Shown here: in pieces, positions 9,854-33,681 of the stretch
Layout of the letters: each line of letters begins with the position of its first letter
How positions within the stretch are numbered: the first letter of the stretch is position 1
Assembly: GCF_003987315.1 (NCBI RefSeq)
Contig: NZ_PIPI01000007.1
Span: 1-64,000 of the forward strand
Length of the DNA: 64,000 nt
Direction of reading: 5' to 3'
Source of the DNA: Aliidiomarina haloalkalitolerans
GTDB lineage: Bacteria; Pseudomonadota; Gammaproteobacteria; Enterobacterales; Alteromonadaceae
Position numbers and translations under genes: made by a program
The notes under the pieces: generated by a model
Database searches by the model: none
Told to the model about the DNA's origin: nothing
Seen by the model: the letters and a program-made list of their open reading frames with translations, nothing else

Positions 9854-11797
9854 TTATTGTCCTCCGTTCGCTGAACGCTGCTCGCGCATCTCGTTCACCA
9901 AGTCGCGAAGCATGGCATGCGATAACAGCCGATTTGGATAGTCAGGCTCAATCGATAATTCTAACAGTGCAACTATTTCCGCGCGGAACTGCACCACGCT
10001 GCTTTGTTCGGTGGCAAAGTATTGGTCAATGTAATGCAAAACTTCCGTCAAGGTCGCCTGATAGTACTCTTGATGGTGATTTAAAGCGGCTTGCTGAGCT
10101 ATCTGTAACTGCAGCTCAATGCGGCCAAACAACAAAGCACGCTGATCACTGTCAAGATGCATCGGCAGCCCATCGTGGCGGCGAACTTTAATCAAATCGC
10201 TGCTAAATGAGTCCCAAGCAGAGGCGATGTTTTGGCGCCAATTACTTAATTCGCTGCGATCGTCGCTTTGTTTCTCGGCTTCTGGCTGCAATGACGTGAC
10301 TAACGGTAATTCACGAACTGCGGTTTGCAAACGCAAAAGCTGCATCACAATGGCCTGAGTATTCACTTCTGGTAATTCATTCAAGAGTTCTTGGTCATTG
10401 CGCAGTTGGCGAATGACTAATTGATAGGTTTCTGGGTTTGACTCGGTCAACACAGACTCAGCCTGAGCTAGCAAAGCGATAGCCGTATTACGCTGATAGT
10501 CGAAGTTTAAACGTTGAATGGCTAAGTTGACTAACTCGTAAGCTTCTAAAACTGGGCCCTGTGCGCCGTGCCGTAATTCTGAGGCGCGCAATTGTTCGTG
10601 CATACGCGTGAGCTGCCGTGCCATTTGGCTTTGCCCTTCTTGCACTGTCGCAAGGGCATCTTCGTGACGCGCCGCTAGGCGTTCTAAAGAGCGCTCTCGT
10701 GCTGCTCGCTCGCTATCAAGGCGGTCATTCACTAACTCACGAATCCGCTCGACTTCGGCTTCAATCATTGCCGGATCTTGTGCCGGTGTTGACGACGTCG
10801 CAACCTCAGCACTGGTTAAGCGTTGGTTTACTGCATCGATATCTGCCTGCGTGGCGGCATTGAACGAGCGCTGTTGTTGCCACACCCACCAACCACCAGC
10901 GGCTAGAACGGCAAGCGAAACCACAATCAGAACTAAGAATACCCGGGTAAAAATGTTACTCGACTGGCTCTTGCGGGGTGATTCTGTTGTCGCGGGCGTT
11001 GTTTCTTTTTCAGTGTTCATAGCGGTTTTGACCTTCGGTTCAATAGATGGCAGCGTCAATAGGGTTTTTACAAGGGCTGAAGGTAGCGCGGAGCGAGCTT
11101 CATGAATTTGCGCTGCGGCAACCTTAAATTCGCTAATCTGTTCAGCAATCCGCCCCGTTGGCACAATCCAATGGCAATTGCGCGCCCATTCCTGACCCGC
11201 TGTGCTCAATGCTTGAAAGAATAGTTTGGCTTGCTCTGCACTGGAAACCATAATCACAGTCACATGCTGGTGCCAGTCTTGTTCGGCTGTTGTGACTTCG
11301 TCGGTGGTGGGTAGACGCCGATAACAGGCACATATTTTAACTTCTGCGCCACGTGAGCGTAACGCTTCTGGCAGCAGGTCGCGGCCATTTTCGCCGGTAA
11401 TAAGTAGCCATTTTTGGCCTTCAAGCTGTTCGAGCTCTGCGAATTCAAGTAAAGCTTCGGAGTTGTGTTCACCTGCAGGCCAACTGATGGGTTGTTGTGC
11501 TAAGGGGCTCAATGCTTCTGCTGTACCCGGACCCACGGTGAAGTAGGCACGCGCCTGCGGCCAGTTAAGCTGGGGATCTTGTAACTGGGAATGGAACTCG
11601 CGTGCGGCATTCGGACTAATGACAATAACACCGTCCCAATGCTCGGCAACTAGCGCTGTGAGTTCATCCTTAGCGATAGTAACGGGCTCAATCGCGACAA
11701 CCGCATGTCGGTATACCGGATAGCCATGGTCGCGCAGCTCCAGCTCGAGAGGATCTGCGTGTTGATCGGGACGAACTAATAACACTCCAGGACGCAT
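9854..11797 (-). CDS. hemD: HemD-HemX fusion: uroporphyrinogen-III synthase with HemX membrane domain
   Basis: One reading frame joins two proteins that are separate in E. coli. Residues 1 to about 245 are HemD (VLLVRPDQ, VISPNAAREF, FTVGPGTAEAL, LLITGENGRDLL, VMVSSAEQAKLF-like segments), which cyclises hydroxymethylbilane to uroporphyrinogen III. After a linker near residue 265 comes a HemX-like part: one transmembrane helix (about 285-308), a coiled coil rich in Glu/Arg, and a helical domain. An internal Met in the linker (MNTEKETTP, near base 11020) would match a separate HemX start, with only a weak GAAGG upstream. I chose the ATG at 11797, 6 bases after ACGGAG; a GTG at 11818 is also in frame. 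hemC ends 56 bases upstream. Confidence 0.9.
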   Translation of the reverse strand: MRPGVLLVRPDQHADPLELELRDHGYPVYRHAVVAIEPVTIAKDELTALVAEHWDGVIVISPNAAREFHSQLQDPQLNWPQARAYFTVGPGTAEALSPLAQQPISWPAGEHNSEALLEFAELEQLEGQKWLLITGENGRDLLPEALRSRGAEVKICACYRRLPTTDEVTTAEQDWHQHVTVIMVSSAEQAKLFFQALSTAGQEWARNCHWIVPTGRIAEQISEFKVAAAQIHEARSALPSALVKTLLTLPSIEPKVKTAMNTEKETTPATTESPRKSQSSNIFTRVFLVLIVVSLAVLAAGGWWVWQQQRSFNAATQADIDAVNQRLTSAEVATSSTPAQDPAMIEAEVERIRELVNDRLDSERAARERSLERLAARHEDALATVQEGQSQMARQLTRMHEQLRASELRHGAQGPVLEAYELVNLAIQRLNFDYQRNTAIALLAQAESVLTESNPETYQLVIRQLRNDQELLNELPEVNTQAIVMQLLRLQTAVRELPLVTSLQPEAEKQSDDRSELSNWRQNIASAWDSFSSDLIKVRRHDGLPMHLDSDQRALLFGRIELQLQIAQQAALNHHQEYYQATLTEVLHYIDQYFATEQSSVVQFRAEIVALLELSIEPDYPNRLLSHAMLRDLVNEMREQRSANGGQ

Positions 11798-23854: not shown

Positions 23855-26800
23855 ATGACTAAGACGACGAAACTGACCCGCATCGCTGCGGCAGTAGCGC
23901 TTACGTTGGGTATGTCTGGTGTAGCAATGGCGGAAACAGCTTCCTCTATGCGCGGCCAGATCGTTGGACCACAAGGTGAAGTGGTTGCAAATACTCGCGT
24001 AATCATCCAGCACGTTCCATCAGGCACCGTAACGACAGTAAACACCAACAACCAAGGTATCTTTACCGCTTCTGGTTTGCGTGTTGGCGGTCCTTACATC
24101 GTAATCATCGATTCAGAAGTATACGAAGGTAAAACCCTGGAAGACATCTTCCTGCAGTTGGGTGACCAGTATCGCTTAAGCGCTCAGTTAGACGAGCGTC
24201 GTGAGCAGTACGAGCGTATTACTGTAACTGGTCGTGCAATTAACACGACATCGTTACAAGCAGGTTCTTCAAGCACCTGGGGCGCACAAGAAATTCAAAA
24301 CATGCCAGCGTTTGACCGCGACCTGAAAGACGTCGTTCGTCAAAACCCATTGGCAACTGATTTAGGTGACGATAACCGTTCATTAACTGTTGGTGGTAAC
24401 AACCCACGTTACAACAGCATCACGGTTGACGGTATCGGCCAAAACGATGACTTTGGTTTGAACTCAGGTGGTTATCCAACGAACCGTTCACCAATTTCAA
24501 TCGACGCAATTGAGCAGGTCTCAATTCAGTCAGTACCTTTCAACGCTCGTTACAGTGGCTTCGCTGGCGCGCGTATCAACGCAGTAACGCGTTCAGGTAC
24601 CAACGAATTCCGTGGCTCAGTGTTCTATGAGTTCGCCAATGACTCAATGGCCGGCAATCCAAAAGCTAGCCGTTATCAGAAAGGCGCTAATCGCCCGAAC
24701 CTAGACTACAAAGAAGTGACCTACGGTTTCAGCTTAGGTGGTCCAATCATTCAAGACCGTTTGTTCTTCTTCGTTAACTACGAAAACTATGAAGAACCAA
24801 CGTCAATCGGCCAAGGCCCTGCAGGCTCAAGCGCTGTTGAAACCAAGAACATCGACCCAAGCGTGATTACTCGCGTACAGAATATCGCACGCGACGTGTA
24901 TGGCGTTGACGCGGGTGACTGGAATGTTCAACCAGAGCAAAAAGACGAGAAAGTCCTCGTTAAATTGGACTGGAATATCAACAACGACCACCGTGCTTCA
25001 TTCACGTATCAGCGTGCTGAAGATGCGGCAGCAAACAACACCTTAACCGGTGGTTTGACTAACTTAAACTTGAACTCACATTGGTATGCTCGTACTCAGA
25101 AAATGGATAACTTTGCATTACAAGTTTATTCAAACTGGACGAACAACTTCAGCACTGAGTTCAAAGCATCTGTGAAAGATGTATCGACAGGTCAAGACCC
25201 AATGCTCGGCCGTAACTTCGGTCAAGTTCAAGTTCGTTTTACTGCGGACGAGAACCCTGCGGGTAATGCTGGTCAAATCAACATCGGTCCAGACCGTTCA
25301 CGTCATGCGAACAGCTTAGAAACCACCACAACTGAACTTCAGTTGCACGGTGAGTATCTGTGGGGCGCGCACCAAACGCAATTTGGTATCGAGCACCAAA
25401 CCATCGACGTATTCAACGAATTCGTTCAGGATTCTTTGGGTAGCTTCGTATTTTTAAGCCTTGCAGACTTTGAAAACCGTTTTGCGGATCAAATTTCTTA
25501 CCAGAACGCCTTCACCAACAATGTTGCTGACGGTGCTGCAAACTTCAAATACGGTAGCACGTCTCTCTACATCCAAGACACTTGGGATGTGAACTGGGAC
25601 CTGACCTTAAGCTTCGGTTTACGTTACGAGCGCTTCAATTCTGATGATCGCCCAGCGTTTAACCAAAACTTCTTCGACCGTTATGGCTTCGAAAACACCA
25701 ACAACATGGACGGTTTAGACCTATTGTTGCCACGTTTCAGCTTTAACTATGAGTGGACTGACAACATCACTGTTCGTGGTGGCGCTGGTATGTTCTCTGG
25801 TGGTCGTCCAAACGTGTGGATTTCAAACGCTTACTCAAACGACGGTGTAACTATTGTTGCTGCGCCTACGTTACGTAACGTTGAAAATGCTGACATTACC
25901 AACGTTCCGCAGCAAATGCGTGATGCGTTACAAGCAGGTGACGGTAACACCACGCCTATCGATCCTAACTTCAAAATGCCATATGACACGCGTTACAGCT
26001 TAGCGATTGATTATAGCGACCTTGACTTAGGCTTCTTAGGTGAAGGCTGGTTTGCTTCAGCAGAAGTTATCTATACCAACAAAGACCGCGAAGTAGCATG
26101 GACTAACTTAGCGAAAGCGCCTTTGTTAGACGATAACGGTAACCAAGTTACTTCAGCGGGCGGTCGTCCATTGTATGTGAGCTGGGACCCATTAGCTGGC
26201 CCACGTCCTACAACTATCGGTGGCTTTAACACCAACCGTATGGATGTGTTGTTAACTAACGTTTCTGGCGGCCGTTCAATCGTGTCAACCTTAAGCTTAG
26301 GTAACAGCTGGGATAACGGTTTGAGCTTCCGTACAAGCTATACGAACCAAGACGTGAGAGACATCACTTCTGGTGGTTCGTCTACAGCTCACTCAAACTA
26401 CAACTTCCAAACTGCTATCGACAAGAACAACCCAACAGTTGGTCGTGCGTCATATGAAATCGAACACCGTTTCATGGCGTCATTGAACTACAACACTGAG
26501 TTGTTCGCGGGCTATCGTACCAACATTGGCTTGTTCTGGGATCGTACTTCAGGTCGTCCGTACAGCTATGCGTTGGATGCGTTTAACTTCCGTGGCTTCG
26601 GTGACGGTTCATCACAAGGTCTGTGGTCTTCAACTAACTACTTACCGTACATTCCTTCAGGTCCTAACGATCCAAACGTTCGTTACACTGGTGGCTTAAC
26701 GTACGAAGAGTTTGCTGGTTACTTAGAAGCTGCTAACTTGACTCAGTTCGCTGGTGGCTATGCTGTACGTAACGAAGGAAACCGTGGTCCTTGGAACACC

Positions 26801-27097
26801 AACCTTGACTTACGTATCGAGCAAGAAATCCCAGGCTTCATGAAAGGTCACAAAGGTGCGATTTACTTAGATATCCGCAACTTCTTGGCTCTGATTGACA
26901 ACACGAACCAACGCCACACTGTTAGCTTCTCTGACACCGGTGTTCGTTTAGCGTCAATCGGCATCGACCCAGAAACTGGACAGTACATCTACGGCCGTCC
27001 TTTCGGTGGCTTCGATGGCACTGGCGCTACTGCAACTCGTTTCAACGCGCGTGCGTCAACTTGGTCAGCGAAAATCGGTATCCGTTACCGTTTCTAA
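23855..27097 (+). CDS. Oar-like TonB-dependent outer-membrane receptor
   Basis: This is a 1080-aa outer-membrane transporter with a signal peptide cleaved after AMA (residue 26), a carboxypeptidase-regulatory-like beta domain (about 30-105), a TonB plug (about 115-235, with VGGNNPRYNSITVDG) and a large barrel ending in the aromatic WSAKIGIRYRF. That is the Oar type first described in Myxococcus and common in marine Alteromonadales. The substrate is not known from sequence. Codon use is highly biased (CGT, GGT, AAC, TTC), predicting very high expression. Three Pho-box-like repeats lie upstream, suggesting induction by phosphate limitation; transport of a phosphorylated compound, or secretion as proposed for Oar, would fit. 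A strong terminator follows. Confidence 0.92.
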   Translation: MTKTTKLTRIAAAVALTLGMSGVAMAETASSMRGQIVGPQGEVVANTRVIIQHVPSGTVTTVNTNNQGIFTASGLRVGGPYIVIIDSEVYEGKTLEDIFLQLGDQYRLSAQLDERREQYERITVTGRAINTTSLQAGSSSTWGAQEIQNMPAFDRDLKDVVRQNPLATDLGDDNRSLTVGGNNPRYNSITVDGIGQNDDFGLNSGGYPTNRSPISIDAIEQVSIQSVPFNARYSGFAGARINAVTRSGTNEFRGSVFYEFANDSMAGNPKASRYQKGANRPNLDYKEVTYGFSLGGPIIQDRLFFFVNYENYEEPTSIGQGPAGSSAVETKNIDPSVITRVQNIARDVYGVDAGDWNVQPEQKDEKVLVKLDWNINNDHRASFTYQRAEDAAANNTLTGGLTNLNLNSHWYARTQKMDNFALQVYSNWTNNFSTEFKASVKDVSTGQDPMLGRNFGQVQVRFTADENPAGNAGQINIGPDRSRHANSLETTTTELQLHGEYLWGAHQTQFGIEHQTIDVFNEFVQDSLGSFVFLSLADFENRFADQISYQNAFTNNVADGAANFKYGSTSLYIQDTWDVNWDLTLSFGLRYERFNSDDRPAFNQNFFDRYGFENTNNMDGLDLLLPRFSFNYEWTDNITVRGGAGMFSGGRPNVWISNAYSNDGVTIVAAPTLRNVENADITNVPQQMRDALQAGDGNTTPIDPNFKMPYDTRYSLAIDYSDLDLGFLGEGWFASAEVIYTNKDREVAWTNLAKAPLLDDNGNQVTSAGGRPLYVSWDPLAGPRPTTIGGFNTNRMDVLLTNVSGGRSIVSTLSLGNSWDNGLSFRTSYTNQDVRDITSGGSSTAHSNYNFQTAIDKNNPTVGRASYEIEHRFMASLNYNTELFAGYRTNIGLFWDRTSGRPYSYALDAFNFRGFGDGSSQGLWSSTNYLPYIPSGPNDPNVRYTGGLTYEEFAGYLEAANLTQFAGGYAVRNEGNRGPWNTNLDLRIEQEIPGFMKGHKGAIYLDIRNFLALIDNTNQRHTVSFSDTGVRLASIGIDPETGQYIYGRPFGGFDGTGATATRFNARASTWSAKIGIRYRF

Positions 27098-27294: not shown

Positions 27295-28968
27295 ATGAAT
27301 GCAATCTTTGTCTTAATTGCGGGTATTGGCGCAATGGCCTTGGGTTATTTTGTTTACTCAAAGTTTATTGCGGAAAAAATCTATCGTTTAGACCCAAATT
27401 TTCGAACACCAGCGCATGAATTTGAAGATGGCGTCGATTTTGTTCCAACTAATAAATACGTATTGTGGGGGCACCATTTCACCTCAGTTGCGGGTGCTGC
27501 GCCAATCATTGGCCCTGCCATCGCCGTAATATGGGGTTGGGTGCCAGCGTTTTTATGGGTGATTTTTGGCACGATTTTCTTTGCCGGTGTGCATGACGCT
27601 GGTGCGATATGGGCAAGTAACCGCAATAAAGCGAAGTCGATAGGGGCACTCACCGGCGATATCGTCGGTAAACGCGCTCGTAGCTTGTTTATGATCGTCA
27701 TTTTCTTAGTTCTATTGATGGTCAATGCCGTGTTCGCTGTTGTCATCGCTGGGTTGCTTGTTGATTTTAACAGTGCGGTGATACCGGTTTGGGGCGCCAT
27801 TCTTGTCGCTTTAATCATCGGTCAGCTTATTTACCGTAAATTAGTCGGCCTGTTGGCAGTCTCTATTATTGGTGTGATTGCCCTTTACAGTCTCATCGGC
27901 CTTGGCCCAATATTCCCTCTGGCCCTACCGGAAACCTTTTTGGGACTTTCTGACCGAGCCCAATGGATTGTGATTCTTTTCGGCTATGCGGCAATTGCAT
28001 CGTTGTTACCTGTGTGGGTGCTTTTGCAGCCACGTGACTACATCAACGGTATCCAGCTCTTCATTGGTTTGATTCTGCTATACGCGGCCGTGCTGATTGC
28101 TGGCCCAGAAATGATCGCACCAGCTTTTAACACCGACGTACCTGAGGGCACGCCGTCCATGATACCGCTGTTGTTCGTGACCATCGCATGCGGCGCTATT
28201 TCAGGTTTCCATGGTTTAGTTGCCGGTGGCACGACCTCAAAGCAGCTCGACAAGGAAACCGACGCACGCTTTGTGGGTTACTTTGGTGCAATCGGTGAAG
28301 GTTCGTTATCGCTTGCGGCAATTATTGCGGCTGCAGCCGGTTTCGCGACATTAGCGGACTGGCAAGCCGTCTACCATTCATTTGGTCAAGGCGGCGTGAA
28401 TGCCTTTGTGGCCGGTGGTGCGAATATTCTAAGTAATGGTATTGGCCTCAACGTCGACCTAGCACAGACCTTGCTGACCGTTATGGCGGTGTTATTTGCC
28501 GGCACCACCATGGATACCGGTCTGCGCTTACAGCGTTATATCTTCCAAGAATGGGGGCAAATTTATAACCTCAAATGGATGCAAAAAGCCGCGCCAGCAA
28601 CATTGCTTGCAGTCGGTGCCTGTTTGTTACTTGCATTTGGTGCCGGCGGGGCCGATGGCTCTGGTGGGCTAATTATCTGGCCATTGTTTGGTACTACGAA
28701 CCAACTCTTAGCAGGCCTTACCCTGTTGGTGATTACCGTCATGTTAGTGCGCTTAGGTCGGCCAATGTATGTCACTTTAATTCCGTTATTGTTCTTATTA
28801 ACCATGACGGTCGCTGCTCTGATCATGCAATTAAAAACGTTCTATGCGCAAGAGAACTGGTTCTTGTTCGGATTAGACATTGTCGTTTTGATTGCAGCTA
28901 TTCTGATCGCACTGGAGTGTGCGTCGGTTCTCAATCATTTACGTAAGGGTGATGAGAAACTTGAGTAA
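27295..28968 (+). CDS. cstA: CstA-family carbon starvation / pyruvate transporter (short form)
   Basis: This is a polytopic inner-membrane protein of 557 aa, shorter than the 700-aa E. coli CstA and BtsT, which import pyruvate and peptides. Family segments are clear: NKYVLWGHHFTSVAGAAPI, GPAIAVIWGWVPAFLWV, HDAGAIWASNR, CGAISGFHGLVAGGTTSKQL and LFGTTNQLLAGLTL. Its stop lies inside the next gene, which overlaps by 17 bases. It is the first gene of a cluster with a Cys-Cys-tailed small protein and an ArsA-like ATPase. Upstream there is only a half CRP-like site. Substrate is inferred from family. Confidence 0.93.
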   Translation: MNAIFVLIAGIGAMALGYFVYSKFIAEKIYRLDPNFRTPAHEFEDGVDFVPTNKYVLWGHHFTSVAGAAPIIGPAIAVIWGWVPAFLWVIFGTIFFAGVHDAGAIWASNRNKAKSIGALTGDIVGKRARSLFMIVIFLVLLMVNAVFAVVIAGLLVDFNSAVIPVWGAILVALIIGQLIYRKLVGLLAVSIIGVIALYSLIGLGPIFPLALPETFLGLSDRAQWIVILFGYAAIASLLPVWVLLQPRDYINGIQLFIGLILLYAAVLIAGPEMIAPAFNTDVPEGTPSMIPLLFVTIACGAISGFHGLVAGGTTSKQLDKETDARFVGYFGAIGEGSLSLAAIIAAAAGFATLADWQAVYHSFGQGGVNAFVAGGANILSNGIGLNVDLAQTLLTVMAVLFAGTTMDTGLRLQRYIFQEWGQIYNLKWMQKAAPATLLAVGACLLLAFGAGGADGSGGLIIWPLFGTTNQLLAGLTLLVITVMLVRLGRPMYVTLIPLLFLLTMTVAALIMQLKTFYAQENWFLFGLDIVVLIAAILIALECASVLNHLRKGDEKLE

Positions 28969-29254
28969 CAGTAAGCTTGAGCAGAAACTTGGCAAGATAA
29001 AGGCGCTTTGGCGCAAGGCAAATGCCTTCGCCGAAGAGGCCTACAATGCGCCATACAGGTCGGCGATTGCGCGCGCGAAGCGCGAACAAGACGACCTGTT
29101 TATGCTTATGGTTTACTCGGAACTCATGGGAATTCCGAATCCAGTGAGTTTTTACACGCTTGAGTTGCAGCCGCTGATGCTCGAACGCTTCCACGAATGG
29201 CATATTCGTATGGGCATGGAGCACTCGCCACTTGATAATATCCGCTGTTGTTAA
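28952..29254 (+). CDS. Small cytoplasmic protein with C-terminal Cys-Cys (cory-CC-star type)
   Basis: This is a 100-aa soluble, helical and charged protein that ends DNIRCC followed directly by the stop. I recognise it, from memory, as the kind of family called cory-CC-star because of the terminal Cys-Cys-stop. The start chosen is the ATG at 28952, inside the end of cstA; a TTG/GTG further upstream is possible. E. coli CstA and BtsT are each followed by a small protein (YbdD, YjiX) that, as I recall, also ends in RCC. This gene takes the same place but is otherwise unlike them. It is followed by an ArsA-like ATPase after 30 bases. Function unknown. Confidence 0.82.
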   Translation: MRNLSNSKLEQKLGKIKALWRKANAFAEEAYNAPYRSAIARAKREQDDLFMLMVYSELMGIPNPVSFYTLELQPLMLERFHEWHIRMGMEHSPLDNIRCC

Positions 29255-29284
29255 CCTTGGCAGCGGACGAAGAGAGGAGGTGCA

Positions 29285-30301
29285 ATGACTTGGCAGGCGT
29301 TTGACCAACCACAGCAGCAACAGCTGTTCGATAAACGGCTGTTGTTGGTCGGTGGCAAAGGTGGCGTCGGTAAAACGACCATATCTTCCGCACTTGCGTT
29401 ACAAGCCGCAGCGCAAGGGAAGAAAGTTTTACTGATCTCGACCGACCCCGCGCATAACCTAGCCGATGTGTTTGACTGCAAGGTTGGTTCAAAGGCGCGG
29501 CGGATAAAAGATAATTTAGATGCTTTGGAAATTGACCCAGATGCTGAAGCGCAAGCTCACTTAGAGCGAATAATTGCCCAAATGAAACAGTTTGTGCAGC
29601 CATCGCTCTATGCAGAAGCGGAGCGCCAATTGCGCTTGTCAGCGAATTCGCCTGGCGCCCAAGAAGCAGCCTTACTCGAGCGCATTTGTCGCGAGATCGA
29701 GCACGGTTCTGCCCATTATGACCTACTTATTTTTGATACTGCACCCACCGGACATACCTTACGTTTGCTAACCTTACCCGAGGCCATGGCGGCATGGACG
29801 CAAGGCATGCTCAAGCATGACCAAAAGTCGTCTGCGCTGAGCGGCGTACTTGCACATTTGAGTCCGAAGAGTGGGCGAGACATCGATAACCCGCTTGCGG
29901 AACCCGAGCGGCTTGCAAGTGCGGAAATGAGTCCTCGTAGTCGAGGAATTACCGAGACATTGCTGAACCGGCAACGCTTGTTCCAGCGCACCCGACGAAT
30001 TCTCCTCGATGCAACGCAAACAGGGATTCTCTATGTACTGATTCCGGAAAAACTGCCTATTCTAGAGACGCAGCGGGCGGTCGCCACCTTGCAAGATGAG
30101 CACTTACCGGTTGCCGCATTGTTTGTAAACCGTGTCTTACCAGCGACGGCGGACGGCGAATTTCTTGCCGCTCGCAGGGCTCAGGAGCAAATGCGACTGG
30201 GCGAGATAGCCTCGGTGTTTAAAAAGTTGCCGCTGTATCAAGTTCCGCTTCAGGCCACCGATATCCAAGGTATTGAACAGCTCACGACCGTGTTTGCCTA
30301 A
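29285..30301 (+). CDS. ArsA/Get3-family ATPase
   Basis: This is a 338-aa single-domain P-loop ATPase of the ArsA/GET3 group. The deviant Walker A is GGKGGVGKTT at 23-32, switch I is STDPAHNLADVFD near 56-68, and the switch II/A-loop region is DTAPTGHTLRLLTLP near 155-170. It carries one domain, not the tandem pair of plasmid ArsA, and no arsB, arsC or arsR is nearby, so arsenite export is unlikely. Get3 relatives chaperone membrane proteins in eukaryotes. A ribosome site (GAGGAGG) precedes the ATG. As the third gene after cstA and the Cys-Cys protein, it may serve assembly or energising of that transporter; this is inference. Confidence 0.9.
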   Translation: MTWQAFDQPQQQQLFDKRLLLVGGKGGVGKTTISSALALQAAAQGKKVLLISTDPAHNLADVFDCKVGSKARRIKDNLDALEIDPDAEAQAHLERIIAQMKQFVQPSLYAEAERQLRLSANSPGAQEAALLERICREIEHGSAHYDLLIFDTAPTGHTLRLLTLPEAMAAWTQGMLKHDQKSSALSGVLAHLSPKSGRDIDNPLAEPERLASAEMSPRSRGITETLLNRQRLFQRTRRILLDATQTGILYVLIPEKLPILETQRAVATLQDEHLPVAALFVNRVLPATADGEFLAARRAQEQMRLGEIASVFKKLPLYQVPLQATDIQGIEQLTTVFA

Positions 30302-30432: not shown

Positions 30433-33400
30433 TTATTTAATATCGTCGCCAGCAAAAGCGTCCATTGGTTTTGCATCGAGCTGCGGATACGGGTTTTCCC
30501 GTAATAACTCGCGCAACACTTCAATGCCACGTTCCAACTGAGCGTCTCGACCATTGAAGGTCGCAAACGGCAGGTTATCAACGACGATGTCAGGGTTAAC
30601 ACCTGAACCCTCGAGGATCCAACGACCGTCCATTGCGTGTTGTGGTGTTTCGGCGACGCGAGCAACACCGCGATCCGCAAGCGTATTTCGACCAGATAAC
30701 CAAACCCCTGCACCCGCTGTTTGTTTACCAACCAACGGACCGAGATTAAGCGCCTTCACGCCAGCCGAGAACGTTTCGCCATCTGAATAGGTTAATTGGT
30801 CGGTTAATACCACCAATTGCCCCATAAAGGCTTGTTGCATATTGGTATAGCCGGCGCCTTTACGCGGCTGCCAGAAGCTCCACGCACGGCGTAATAGCTT
30901 CTCGATAATCCAACTATCGATATTACCACCGCGATTACGGCGGACGTCAATAATCAGACCTTCTTTTTCAAAGTTGGCATAAAACTCGCGGGCAAAGCTA
31001 GCGATGTCGCCGGCACCCATGGCGTACAGATGTAAGTAACCAAACTTACCATCACTTGCTGAAGTTACGGCGTCACGATTATTCTGCACCCACGTCTCAT
31101 AACGTAAACGGTGATCACGACCTGAGCTCACCGGATTCACGACCGTTTGCAGCGACTCGCCGGCCCGATCAAGGGTCAGCAATACTTGCCGACCCGCTTG
31201 ACCACGCAACGCAGTATGTAGGTCACCAGGATGCTGAATAGCGCGGCCATTCACATGCGTAATCACGTCACCACTGCGGGCGTTAACACCGGCAGCAGCA
31301 AGCGGTGCCGCTTGGTCTGGCAACTCGGGGTCGACTCGATAGATGGTATCAATGCGCACGCCATTACTAGCAATGCTATATTGAGCACCTAAAGAAGCGC
31401 TGCTTGCCCGTTCACGCGGCGCTGAATATTCGCCGCCACGCACTTGCGAGTGGAGGACATTGAGTTCGCTCAGTAGCTGCGAAAAGACATCGTCGAGTTC
31501 ATGGCGATCGGTGAGTCGATCGAGTAACGGCTCATAACGAGCGCGCATTTCTTCCCAGTCGACGCCACGCATATTGCGGTCAAACAGGAAGTCGCGATGC
31601 ATGAGCCAAGCGTCTCGGTACATTTGACGCCATTCTTGCTGTGGCGAAAAGGCCAGCTTCCAATCACCCGCATTCACGCGAGCCGTATTCAAACTACCAG
31701 GCAAGCGAGCCCCAGCGTCAACAATAAACATATTGGTGGCTGCGCCCTGCTGAATGAGTAAGCGCTTACCATCATTAGAAAGCTGATAACGATTGATATT
31801 GGTTCCGAACGATTCACGCTTTGGATCAGTATTAGTAAACTCGATGGTAAATAGTTCCGCTGGGTTACCCCAGCCTGCTTCGCGTGCTTGTACGTATAAG
31901 CGGTTACTATTCGCGGTCAGGTTATAGTAATTATCAGCGGCAACCGGAACTTGCCATAAACGCTCAGGCGCACCTTGAATATCATACGCTTGTTCTTTTG
32001 CTTGTTCATTGTCGCAGTGGCTGACTTCTTGTGGCGGCGCAAACGGGAAACAAGCAGAAGCTTTCAACGATACCGCATAAATTTGCGTTCTTTTATTGAA
32101 GAACGCGCCCATATTACGGTCGCCCCAAGGTGAACTTGGTGTTGCTTGATAGTTACGATCGGATAAGAAATACAGCCAGTTGCCGTCATGGCTGAACGTT
32201 GGCGAGCCCGACTCGTATTTATCAGTGGTGACCACTTGATGGGTGTCATCGGCTAACGAGTAAACCCAAACTTGGGTACGTGGCGCAAATTGGTCGTTAC
32301 GGGCGAAGGCAAGTAACTCGCTATCTTGAGACCAAACTAAGCTACTTAAACCGAAGTGACCGGCTGCACCGTCTTTAATTTTGCGGTTTTCGCCACTGGC
32401 TATATTGAGCAACCACAGGTTGCCGTGCTTGTCGTCGTGGGCAATGTAGTTACCATCGGGCGAAAGAACTAGGTTCCAACGGAAGGTAACGCCGTCGTGG
32501 GTTAAGCGTTCGGCACCTTCTTTGCCATTTGCCGGGAAGCGCCAGATTTCATTTTCACCACTGTGGTCATTAAACGCGTAAACCCATTCACCGTCGTGGC
32601 TAAGAACTGCGTTGCGCGAACGACTTTCGGCTGGCGTCGCCACTTCTGCTAGGCGGCGTGCGCCTAGAGCCGCCACCGCGATTTGACTGCGCGCGGTAAT
32701 TGCAACTTGATCGCTGCCACCTAAACTGACATCGGTCATATAGGCCAACGGGTTTTCCAGCCAACGCTCTTGGCGTTGGGTGAAGTCAGAGCTTAGTGTC
32801 AGTTCTAATTGACGACTCGTTTGCTGACGTAAGTCGTGAATATAAAGGTCGGCACCGCGCTGGTAAACTAAGCGGCCGTCGTGCAAGCTGGCAGACCAAA
32901 CTTGCCAGTCATCGTAAAACGTGTGTTGTGTGAAATCGCTACCATTGGTGGTCATCGACCAGATATTTGGGGTGCCGTCTTCGTCACTGATGAAATAGAC
33001 GCGGCCATTCCAATACATAGGACGCTTTACCGAACCAGCGTGGTCAGCCGTCAAATGCACGGCTTCTTGATTGCGGCTGCGGTCAAATCGCCAGATTTCA
33101 CCTTTCGCACCACCGCGATAAACGCGAGCGTTGTCGCCAGTCGCTTGTAACCCAAAGCGCGAAAAGAACACCTGATTACCGTCGCTGCTGGTCGTGCCCT
33201 CAATGGCGTCAATCAGCGGTAACGTGGTCGTTGCCAAGGTCGCTGGGTTGACACTGCGCAAGACCCATTGGTTGGCTGGGCCGACGATATTATCAGTACT
33301 AAATAAAACTTCACCATCGGGTGTCCACGAATGCACCCGCACACGACTATTTTCGAAGCTCACGCGCTTTGGTACGCCACCACGAATCGGCATGACGTAG

Positions 33401-33681
33401 ACTTCTGGGTCACCTTCATAGTTGGCGACAAACGCAACCCATTCACCGTCTGCGGAAATGGTCGCATTGAGCTCTTCGGCTGCATGCGAGGTTAAACGTT
33501 GAGTTTCCGAACTATGAAGATTACCGCGCCATAGGTCGCCTTCAGCGGTAAAGATGACTTGGTCTTGATGAATCGCTGGCGCGCGGTAATAGCCGGGCTC
33601 TCCAGCGCTTACAGAGATGGTTGAACTCGCCACTAAAGCAAGCACAACGGCGCTTAAACGCGCAGACGGAATGATAGTCAT
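30433..33681 (-). CDS. Secreted tricorn-type S41 protease with beta-propeller
   Basis: This is a 1082-aa protein with a signal peptide (cleavage near residue 26, SVSA-GE). It has two beta-propeller/TolB-like repeat regions (about 30-330 and 340-640, with repeated SxDGxWVAF-type units), a tricorn C1 helical region near 690-745, a PDZ domain (about 765-850) and an S41 catalytic core. The nucleophile Ser is in TYSDGETFSAG (S966), Glu in ILEGSGVNPD (E1024) and His at 744 in LHSQVRGGEY; these line up with Ser965, Glu1023 and His746 of archaeal tricorn as I recall them. Tricorn usually has Ser before the His; here it is Leu. Unlike cytosolic tricorn, it is exported, so it probably degrades peptides in the periplasm or outside. 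Confidence 0.92.
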   Translation of the reverse strand: MTIIPSARLSAVVLALVASSTISVSAGEPGYYRAPAIHQDQVIFTAEGDLWRGNLHSSETQRLTSHAAEELNATISADGEWVAFVANYEGDPEVYVMPIRGGVPKRVSFENSRVRVHSWTPDGEVLFSTDNIVGPANQWVLRSVNPATLATTTLPLIDAIEGTTSSDGNQVFFSRFGLQATGDNARVYRGGAKGEIWRFDRSRNQEAVHLTADHAGSVKRPMYWNGRVYFISDEDGTPNIWSMTTNGSDFTQHTFYDDWQVWSASLHDGRLVYQRGADLYIHDLRQQTSRQLELTLSSDFTQRQERWLENPLAYMTDVSLGGSDQVAITARSQIAVAALGARRLAEVATPAESRSRNAVLSHDGEWVYAFNDHSGENEIWRFPANGKEGAERLTHDGVTFRWNLVLSPDGNYIAHDDKHGNLWLLNIASGENRKIKDGAAGHFGLSSLVWSQDSELLAFARNDQFAPRTQVWVYSLADDTHQVVTTDKYESGSPTFSHDGNWLYFLSDRNYQATPSSPWGDRNMGAFFNKRTQIYAVSLKASACFPFAPPQEVSHCDNEQAKEQAYDIQGAPERLWQVPVAADNYYNLTANSNRLYVQAREAGWGNPAELFTIEFTNTDPKRESFGTNINRYQLSNDGKRLLIQQGAATNMFIVDAGARLPGSLNTARVNAGDWKLAFSPQQEWRQMYRDAWLMHRDFLFDRNMRGVDWEEMRARYEPLLDRLTDRHELDDVFSQLLSELNVLHSQVRGGEYSAPRERASSASLGAQYSIASNGVRIDTIYRVDPELPDQAAPLAAAGVNARSGDVITHVNGRAIQHPGDLHTALRGQAGRQVLLTLDRAGESLQTVVNPVSSGRDHRLRYETWVQNNRDAVTSASDGKFGYLHLYAMGAGDIASFAREFYANFEKEGLIIDVRRNRGGNIDSWIIEKLLRRAWSFWQPRKGAGYTNMQQAFMGQLVVLTDQLTYSDGETFSAGVKALNLGPLVGKQTAGAGVWLSGRNTLADRGVARVAETPQHAMDGRWILEGSGVNPDIVVDNLPFATFNGRDAQLERGIEVLRELLRENPYPQLDAKPMDAFAGDDIK

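Follow-up and report, generated by a model that had tools for sequence, protein, structure and literature searches.

The conserved unit of cstA, CC gene and ATPase gene

The window analysed here is a stretch of 64,000 nucleotides from Aliidiomarina haloalkalitolerans (contig NZ_PIPI01000007.1, assembly GCF_003987315.1, positions 1 to 64,000). It carries a cstA gene for a short carbon-starvation-type transporter, a gene for a small protein with two cysteines at its C-terminus (the CC gene and CC protein) and a gene for a single-domain Get3/ArsA-type ATPase. As shown in Table 1, the three genes follow each other on one strand. The open reading frames and the DNA gave the same layout as a preliminary description made from the sequence, including the coordinates, the lengths of CstA and the CC protein, the RCC end, the overlap of the first two genes and the single-domain ATPase. 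With its start at the ATG at 28952 (an alternative upstream GTG would give 111 residues) and its stop codon ending at 29254, the CC gene overlaps cstA by 17 bases (28952-28968), and a gap of 30 bases separates it from the ATPase gene. This cstA encodes the sole CstA of the genome, as the two pieces matched in the search both belonged to one gene. The ATPase was the only full-length ArsA-family match of the genome; at one other location a match of 35 positions reached 28.6 bits.

Table 1. Features of the cstA locus in the window.
Feature	Position	Strand	Basis
cstA, short carbon-starvation-type transporter, 557 residues	27295..28968	+	Open reading frame; PF02554 2.5e-135
cstX / cory-CC-star small protein, 100 residues, C-terminus Arg-Cys-Cys-stop	28952..29254	+	NCBIfam NF041419, 134.4 bits
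Codons of the last two Cys (residues 99-100) in the small protein	29246..29251	+	Sequence; invariant in the rows examined
Single-domain Get3/ArsA-type ATPase, 338 residues	29285..30301	+	TIGR00345 275.5 bits; PF02374 3e-78

The three genes are a real conserved unit. We compared 98 loci, of which 18 came from whole-genome searches (20 distinct genomes were matched and two yielded no locus) and the other 80 were the top matches in a scan of named genomes that gave at least 574. The two subsets overlap in genomes and are to that extent redundant, one locus is that of the window, and most are from Gammaproteobacteria. The ATPase gene was located downstream of the CC gene and on the same strand in all 98 loci, and cstA was located upstream in 97, with some loci cut by contig ends. 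The sole locus without upstream cstA (L098) lies on a contig that begins just before the CC gene. Among the 80 named loci, CstA (77/80) and the ATPase (76/80) were the only widely kept neighbours of the CC gene; the next cluster was present in 26/80, and no further conserved neighbour was found above that number. In the genus of the window, 13 of 17 genomes encode the CC protein and the same 13 encode CstA, while the same four genomes lack both and also lack this class of ATPase (best matches of 20 to 28 bits). In 31 of 79 loci, the last codons of the CC gene share bases with an ATG in another frame, which fits translational coupling.

Some loci differed in detail. In L005, L064 and others, the ATPase gene begins within the codons for the tail of the CC protein, in another frame. 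Two loci of Natronospirillum (L108 and L121) have the order cstA-CC-ATPase-cstA, with a second cstA after the ATPase gene. In Idiomarina sp. ATCH4 (L118), the ATPase is split near 10267-11312 into frames of 63 and 297 residues, and in Pseudidiomarina salinarum (L086) cstA lies in two frames of 357 and 225 residues; each case may be a frameshift, a pseudogene or an assembly error.

Members of the unit were also found in distant bacteria. The CC protein was present in 30 of 150 genomes of Gemmatimonadota, the phylum of one divergent locus. The order cstA-CC-ATPase was seen in 9 of these 30 loci and the order CC-ATPase in 18, of which 17 had cstA downstream and one had no cstA within the flank; the changed order was confirmed on longer DNA in two loci. 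In L229 and L230, the gene after cstA-CC was unrelated and, judged by eye, symporter-like, and an ATPase of 48% identity was encoded on another contig of the same genome. The order is rearranged in the Gemmatimonadota set and the genes stay together. Six plasmid records were matched, from Pseudochrobactrum, Paracoccus and Cytobacillus (Alphaproteobacteria and Bacillota), and the full set, with an ArsA-family gene for the ATPase, was present in all three records that were opened. On the Cytobacillus plasmid, a hypothetical gene is located between cstA and the CC gene; this locus (L132, Cytobacillus spongiae) has the order cstA-hypothetical-CC-ATPase and lies beside the sulfur genes TusA, DsrE and TauE. 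A second plasmid search, with a small protein from Gemmatimonadota as query, matched these six records again and nothing from archaea. The unit is kept across three phyla, Pseudomonadota, Gemmatimonadota and Bacillota, and the linkage of the three genes noted in the preliminary description was therefore seen well outside the genome of the window.

We give an even chance to the reading that the three genes encode one transport unit, in which CstA would be the importer, the CC protein its accessory subunit and the ATPase a component acting through that subunit. The genes might instead share no more than transcription under a common condition, e.g., carbon starvation, with no physical coupling of the products. 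The maintenance of the unit in three phyla, with a changed order in one of them, the joint absence of the genes within the genus of the window, and the out-of-frame ATG over the last codons of the CC gene all speak against it, and we consider it quite improbable.

The module was already predicted in 2010, and the window is a further case of it, not a new one. Castillo and Saier reported 26 CstA-ArsA gene associations, 24 of them with a small protein named CstX (PMC2963123). The operons belong to its ArsA clusters 14-18. In the passages of that paper used here, Idiomarina loihiensis and I. baltica are listed in cluster 18, the trees of CstA, CstX and ArsA are described as largely matching, and CstX is proposed to couple CstA to the ATPase (PMC2963123). 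The window shares with those operons the three genes, their sizes, the lineage and the lack of ars genes, as it holds cstA, an adjacent small gene of about 90-100 residues, a single-domain ArsA homologue of about 330 residues and no recognised ars gene. One difference was found in the same passages: the archaeal CstX of cluster 14 is called a protein with a single transmembrane segment, whereas the CC proteins look soluble, with 0 of 100 reaching a 19-residue hydropathy of 1.6. In I. baltica OS145 (L123), the strain tabulated in 2010, and in an I. loihiensis strain other than that of the paper (L104), a CC-tailed protein is encoded between cstA and the ATPase gene. From this gene position in Idiomarina, we infer that CstX and the CC-tailed family are the same. 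The "candidate module" of the preliminary description thus stands as a real unit, and its novelty does not, since both the operon and the coupling proposal appear in the 2010 passages.

The small protein of the window exceeded the cut-off of 80 bits for NCBIfam NF041419 (cory-CC-star) and is a member of that family, with no difference found. A match to the same model in the archaeon Haloferax volcanii stayed under the cut-off. RefSeq-derived plasmid annotation already places cory-CC-star beside an "ArsA family ATPase". The name suggests that NCBI curators noticed the tail; it was not found in the open-licence papers searched, and the passages of PMC2963123 used here contain no mention of a CC tail of CstX. 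The open-licence literature searched also yielded no report of the invariant CC tail of CstX, of its match with the tails of YbdD, of the presence of the two partners in different genomes or of the absence of cysteines from about half of the ATPases, and no experimental test of the coupling between ATPase and transporter proposed in 2010.

The Cys-Cys tail and the YbdD family

All 132 rows of small proteins, in which the window was counted twice, ended in Cys-Cys; after identical ends of the last 70 residues were merged, this corresponded to 100 of 100 distinct cores. The residue before Cys-Cys was Arg or Lys in 96 of the 100 distinct proteins, and only 6 contained another Cys within the last 70 residues. 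Loss of the tail in homologues beside cstA, which would have counted against the preliminary description, was seen in none of the distinct sequences. In 80 loci, 72 of the 1265 called genes of at least 90 residues ended in CC, and all 72 belonged to this family (70 by a scripted motif and 2 by eye from their tails). Because none of the other 1193 genes of these loci ended in CC, the tail goes beyond chance. The small protein of the window was below every cut-off in Pfam (best E 0.083), and no solved relative was found by sequence at E up to 10.

The same tail is present on another partner of CstA. E. coli YbdD ends in RCC when its sequence is checked, as the preliminary description had stated. 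In the YbdD/YjiX family (PF04328; also DUF466, Sel_put), 25 of 27 tails were [RK]CC and 2 of 27 were RCPC, and CstA was encoded in the flank of 25 of the 27 loci. Pyruvate uptake in E. coli was 13% in a cstA mutant and 20% in a ybdD mutant, and YbdD is needed together with CstA for full pyruvate uptake, according to the passages used of PMC5847655. The CC end of the YbdD family is already in print, and the passages used of PMC4607533 report a terminal selenocysteine in this family in some Epsilonproteobacteria (Helicobacter hepaticus, H. cinaedi and Campylobacter lari), taken by the authors as a sign of redox activity.

Both families are small partners of CstA with an [RK]CC tail. However, the YbdD family accompanies a long CstA of about 700 residues and the CC protein a short one, and no ArsA-type ATPase was encoded within the flanks of any of the 27 YbdD-family loci. 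No homology between the two families could be detected. PF04328 was not among the matches of the window's small protein up to E 1. Comparison of the profiles with hhalign gave a probability of 2.2% with a 13-row profile of the CC protein and 5.9% with a 100-row profile, the latter over five columns that were the tail itself. Homology of the small protein to YbdD was therefore rejected as demonstrable homology, since the profile comparisons aligned at best the tail; very distant descent is possible. This agrees with the suggestion in the preliminary description that the Cys-Cys tail is shared by unrelated or very distant partners of CstA.

PF04328 was absent from the genome of the window in a profile search. 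Of the 49 genomes with the CC protein that were searched, none held it, nor did any of 6 genomes with a stand-alone short CstA, against 26 of 150 genomes of the phylum sample. This suggests that the CC protein and the YbdD family occupy different genomes in a sample whose genomes are related to each other.

The ATPase and the surroundings of the module

The ATPase scored well above the cut-off of 135 bits for TIGR00345 (GET3_arsA_TRC40). Against the arsenite-pump ArsA model TIGR04291 it reached 168.4 bits, below the cut-off of 650, and its length is not that of a two-domain protein. Merging of identical ends reduced 129 ATPase rows to 121 distinct sequences. Walker A and the STDPAH motif were intact in 120 of these, the exception being L118, in which the gene is split into two frames. 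The fold, Walker A and the switch motifs are shared with Get3/TRC40 and with plasmid ArsA.

The cysteines differed from those of both relatives. No Cys column exceeded 20% in 98 ATPases, and 66 of 120 ATPases had no Cys at all from the P-loop onward (L118 was left out of this count, as its longer piece lacks the P-loop). A dimer-bridging CxxC is a feature of Get3, and this motif was present in 0 of 121 distinct ATPases. Unlike the arsenite-pump ArsA, the window ATPase is single-domain and has no conserved cysteines. Three essential cysteines are described for that ArsA in PMC2963123, and none of them has a conserved counterpart here; the same paper already notes that single-domain homologues do not keep these cysteines and must work by another mechanism.

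As one option, the preliminary description had the Cys-Cys tail bound by the ATPase, with metal or thiolates holding the two together. The invariance of the tail and the ArsA family membership of the ATPase would fit this idea, and a comparable case is ArsD, which hands As(III) to ArsA. However, because the ATPases have no conserved Cys, lack CxxC and are in more than half of the cases free of Cys from the P-loop onward, a thiol or thiolate-metal bridge from the tail to cysteines of the ATPase appears unlikely as a general mechanism. We regard shared tail-ATPase chemistry as highly improbable; the claim found no support as far as the ATPase's own thiolates are concerned, and other ligands are possible.

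The likeness to Get3 raises an alternative to the transport unit. A Get3-like ATPase could insert, assemble or quality-control CstA, or CstA together with the small protein, and have no role during transport. In a Foldseek search with the model of the ATPase, the nearest chains were the archaeal Get3/TRC40 structures 3zq6 and 3ug6, and two-domain ArsA first appeared at rank 50. With phmmer, archaeal Get3 3zq6 also gave the best single stretch, at 176.6 bits (E 5.6e-52 for the whole sequence). Between the LPExM motif and the strand at 357-363, the predicted model contains a largely helical segment, which we take to be the Get3 insert region. On the other hand, phmmer placed the two-domain ATPase ARSA1 (5zme) first by whole-sequence E, with 6.4e-57 from three stretches, and chains of two-domain ArsA came soon after (1.3e-48 to 1.1e-45). 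CstA is a many-helix protein and not a tail-anchored client, related CstAs occur without any such ATPase, and the CxxC of Get3 is missing throughout. A role in biogenesis would also leave unexplained why one CstA clade alone should need its own insertase. We therefore hold it to be rather doubtful. A Foldseek search with the model of the three-gene chain returned ATPases in all of its best 50 rows.

The ATPase could also power transport directly, as ArsA does for ArsB, which would turn CstA into a primary pump. This was the proposal of 2010, and it draws on the common plan of a transporter, a small partner and an ArsA-type ATPase, and on the coevolution argument published in PMC2963123. It has to face the lack of conserved Cys in these ATPases, the statement in the passages of the same paper that the ArsA cysteines are not kept in single-domain homologues, which must work differently, and the absence of such an ATPase gene beside E. 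coli cstA and from six genomes with a stand-alone CstA. Direct powering in this manner seems to us unlikely.

The module is surrounded by ordinary-looking chromosomal genes, named partly by hidden Markov model (HMM) and partly by eye. RecQ, a TonB-dependent receptor, a Tricorn-like S41 peptidase and a hybrid histidine kinase were named by HMM. From 11.8 to 39.1 kb, none of the open frames inspected was recognised as an arsenic gene (partly by HMM and partly by eye; frames of at least 150 residues up to 21.7 kb and of at least 80 residues beyond 22 kb), in agreement with the preliminary description. The TonB-dependent receptor, with a carboxypeptidase-regulatory-like domain (23855-27097, + strand), and the Tricorn-like S41 peptidase (30433-33681, - strand) flank the module, and an M28 peptidase (one representative was named) lies about 7 kb from it in 26 of 80 related loci. 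The nearby peptidases might hint at a peptide substrate, but they look like local synteny.

CstA and the proposed transport unit

The CstA of the window matched PF02554 with 452.8 bits (cut-off 27) and contains the family motif ACGAISGFH; no solved relative was found by sequence at E up to 0.01. The motif ACGA-x-SGFH, with Cys at residue 299, is common to this CstA, E. coli CstA and BtsT. Where a genome encoded a CstA of 60% identity or more, it also encoded the small protein in 15 of 17 cases in the relatives sample and in 6 of 10 in the phylum sample, two genomes being shared. A class of CstA with about 44% identity had no CC-tailed or ArsA neighbour within the flanks of the 19 loci inspected, and none of its genomes was among the 7 of 398 genomes that have the small protein. 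A third class (L158 and L161-L170; about 490-590 residues, 29-37% identity) had no CC-tailed frame just downstream, and the GTTxK part of the motif was altered in 10 of its 11 members. The dependence is one-way: the examined CC genes lie beside cstA, with two exceptions, and CstA also occurs without the CC gene. The only examined CC genes without cstA alongside were L098, at a contig end, and L223, at the flank limit.

In the reading that we prefer, the three products would work as one transport unit. CstA would be the importer, and its substrate is likely to be pyruvate or a similar small carboxylate or a peptide, judging from E. coli CstA. The CC-tailed protein would be an accessory subunit of CstA on the cytoplasmic side, with a role like that of YbdD for E. 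coli CstA. The ATPase would most likely be a homodimer with the Get3 fold that binds through the small protein, and ATP may be used to gate, activate or energise CstA, which is the least certain step. The terminal Cys-Cys would be a vicinal dithiol/disulfide or a metal-binding tip that acts alone or on CstA, and a thiol bond from it to the ATPase is probably not involved. Gene linkage, the invariance of the tail, the intact motifs of the ATPase and its lack of conserved cysteines were computed directly.

Several results weigh against this reading. Six genomes (G030, G033, G070, G324, G336 and G422) encode a CstA of 62-63% identity that has no partner gene next to it, and neither the small protein nor the ATPase class was found elsewhere in them, so that part of this CstA clade, at least, can do without the partners. 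In the CstA tree, the six stand-alone proteins formed one clade beside the CC-linked CstAs; with the base of the tree unresolved and a long-branch warning, loss and ancestral absence of the partners cannot be told apart. In the Gemmatimonadota genome G563, the gene for the small protein sits at the edge of a contig, and a search for this ATPase class found no match. Cys299 was conserved in 115 of 115 CstAs of all classes, with or without a CC partner (rows of CC loci of at most 500 residues were dropped and 75 kept). It is the only Cys in every CstA class and thus the sole candidate thiol partner common to all. AlphaFold2 modelled the ATPase confidently and the small protein poorly: in a single chain of the three genes (102 rows), the blocks of the small protein had predicted local distance difference test (pLDDT) values of 29-51, and in a chain of small protein and ATPase (124 rows) the values were 65-85 over its first 30 residues and 37-60 after these. 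As the small protein was modelled poorly in both chains, we claim no interface.

Three other candidates were discarded. Cys299 was rejected as a tail-specific partner, being present also in the stand-alone CstAs. Cys443 of CstA was rejected as a residue that tracks the tail, as it was present in 75 of 75 CC-linked and 6 of 6 stand-alone CstAs and in none of the other 34; it is restricted to CstAs of 62-100% identity. A frame of 47 residues ending in CIC beside the stand-alone CstA of L175 was judged to be a chance frame, the genome having no relative of the small protein. Of 302 conserved CstA positions, 38 separated the CC-linked from the stand-alone proteins; they were scattered, with no clear patch by eye.

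A broader view can be offered tentatively, as a possible account that we consider less likely than not. CstA may have recruited, at least twice, unrelated small cytoplasmic subunits that share only a terminal [RK]-Cys-Cys (Cys-Sec in some relatives of YbdD). The tip could then be a general working part, e.g., a redox switch, a metal-binding tip or a thiol that handles keto acids, and in one branch the adaptor would add a Get3-type ATPase, leading to ATP-controlled transport.

The module itself is real, conserved and already predicted, and the small protein is widespread, with at least 574 relatives in one scan and members in a fifth of the 150 Gemmatimonadota genomes searched. The comparison of the tails is the part most worth bench work. 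The Cys-free ATPases narrow down where the chemistry of the tail can occur, and the same Cys-Cys end on two partners of CstA with no detectable homology, one of them with selenocysteine variants, opens the thiol dependence of CstA transport to a simple test.

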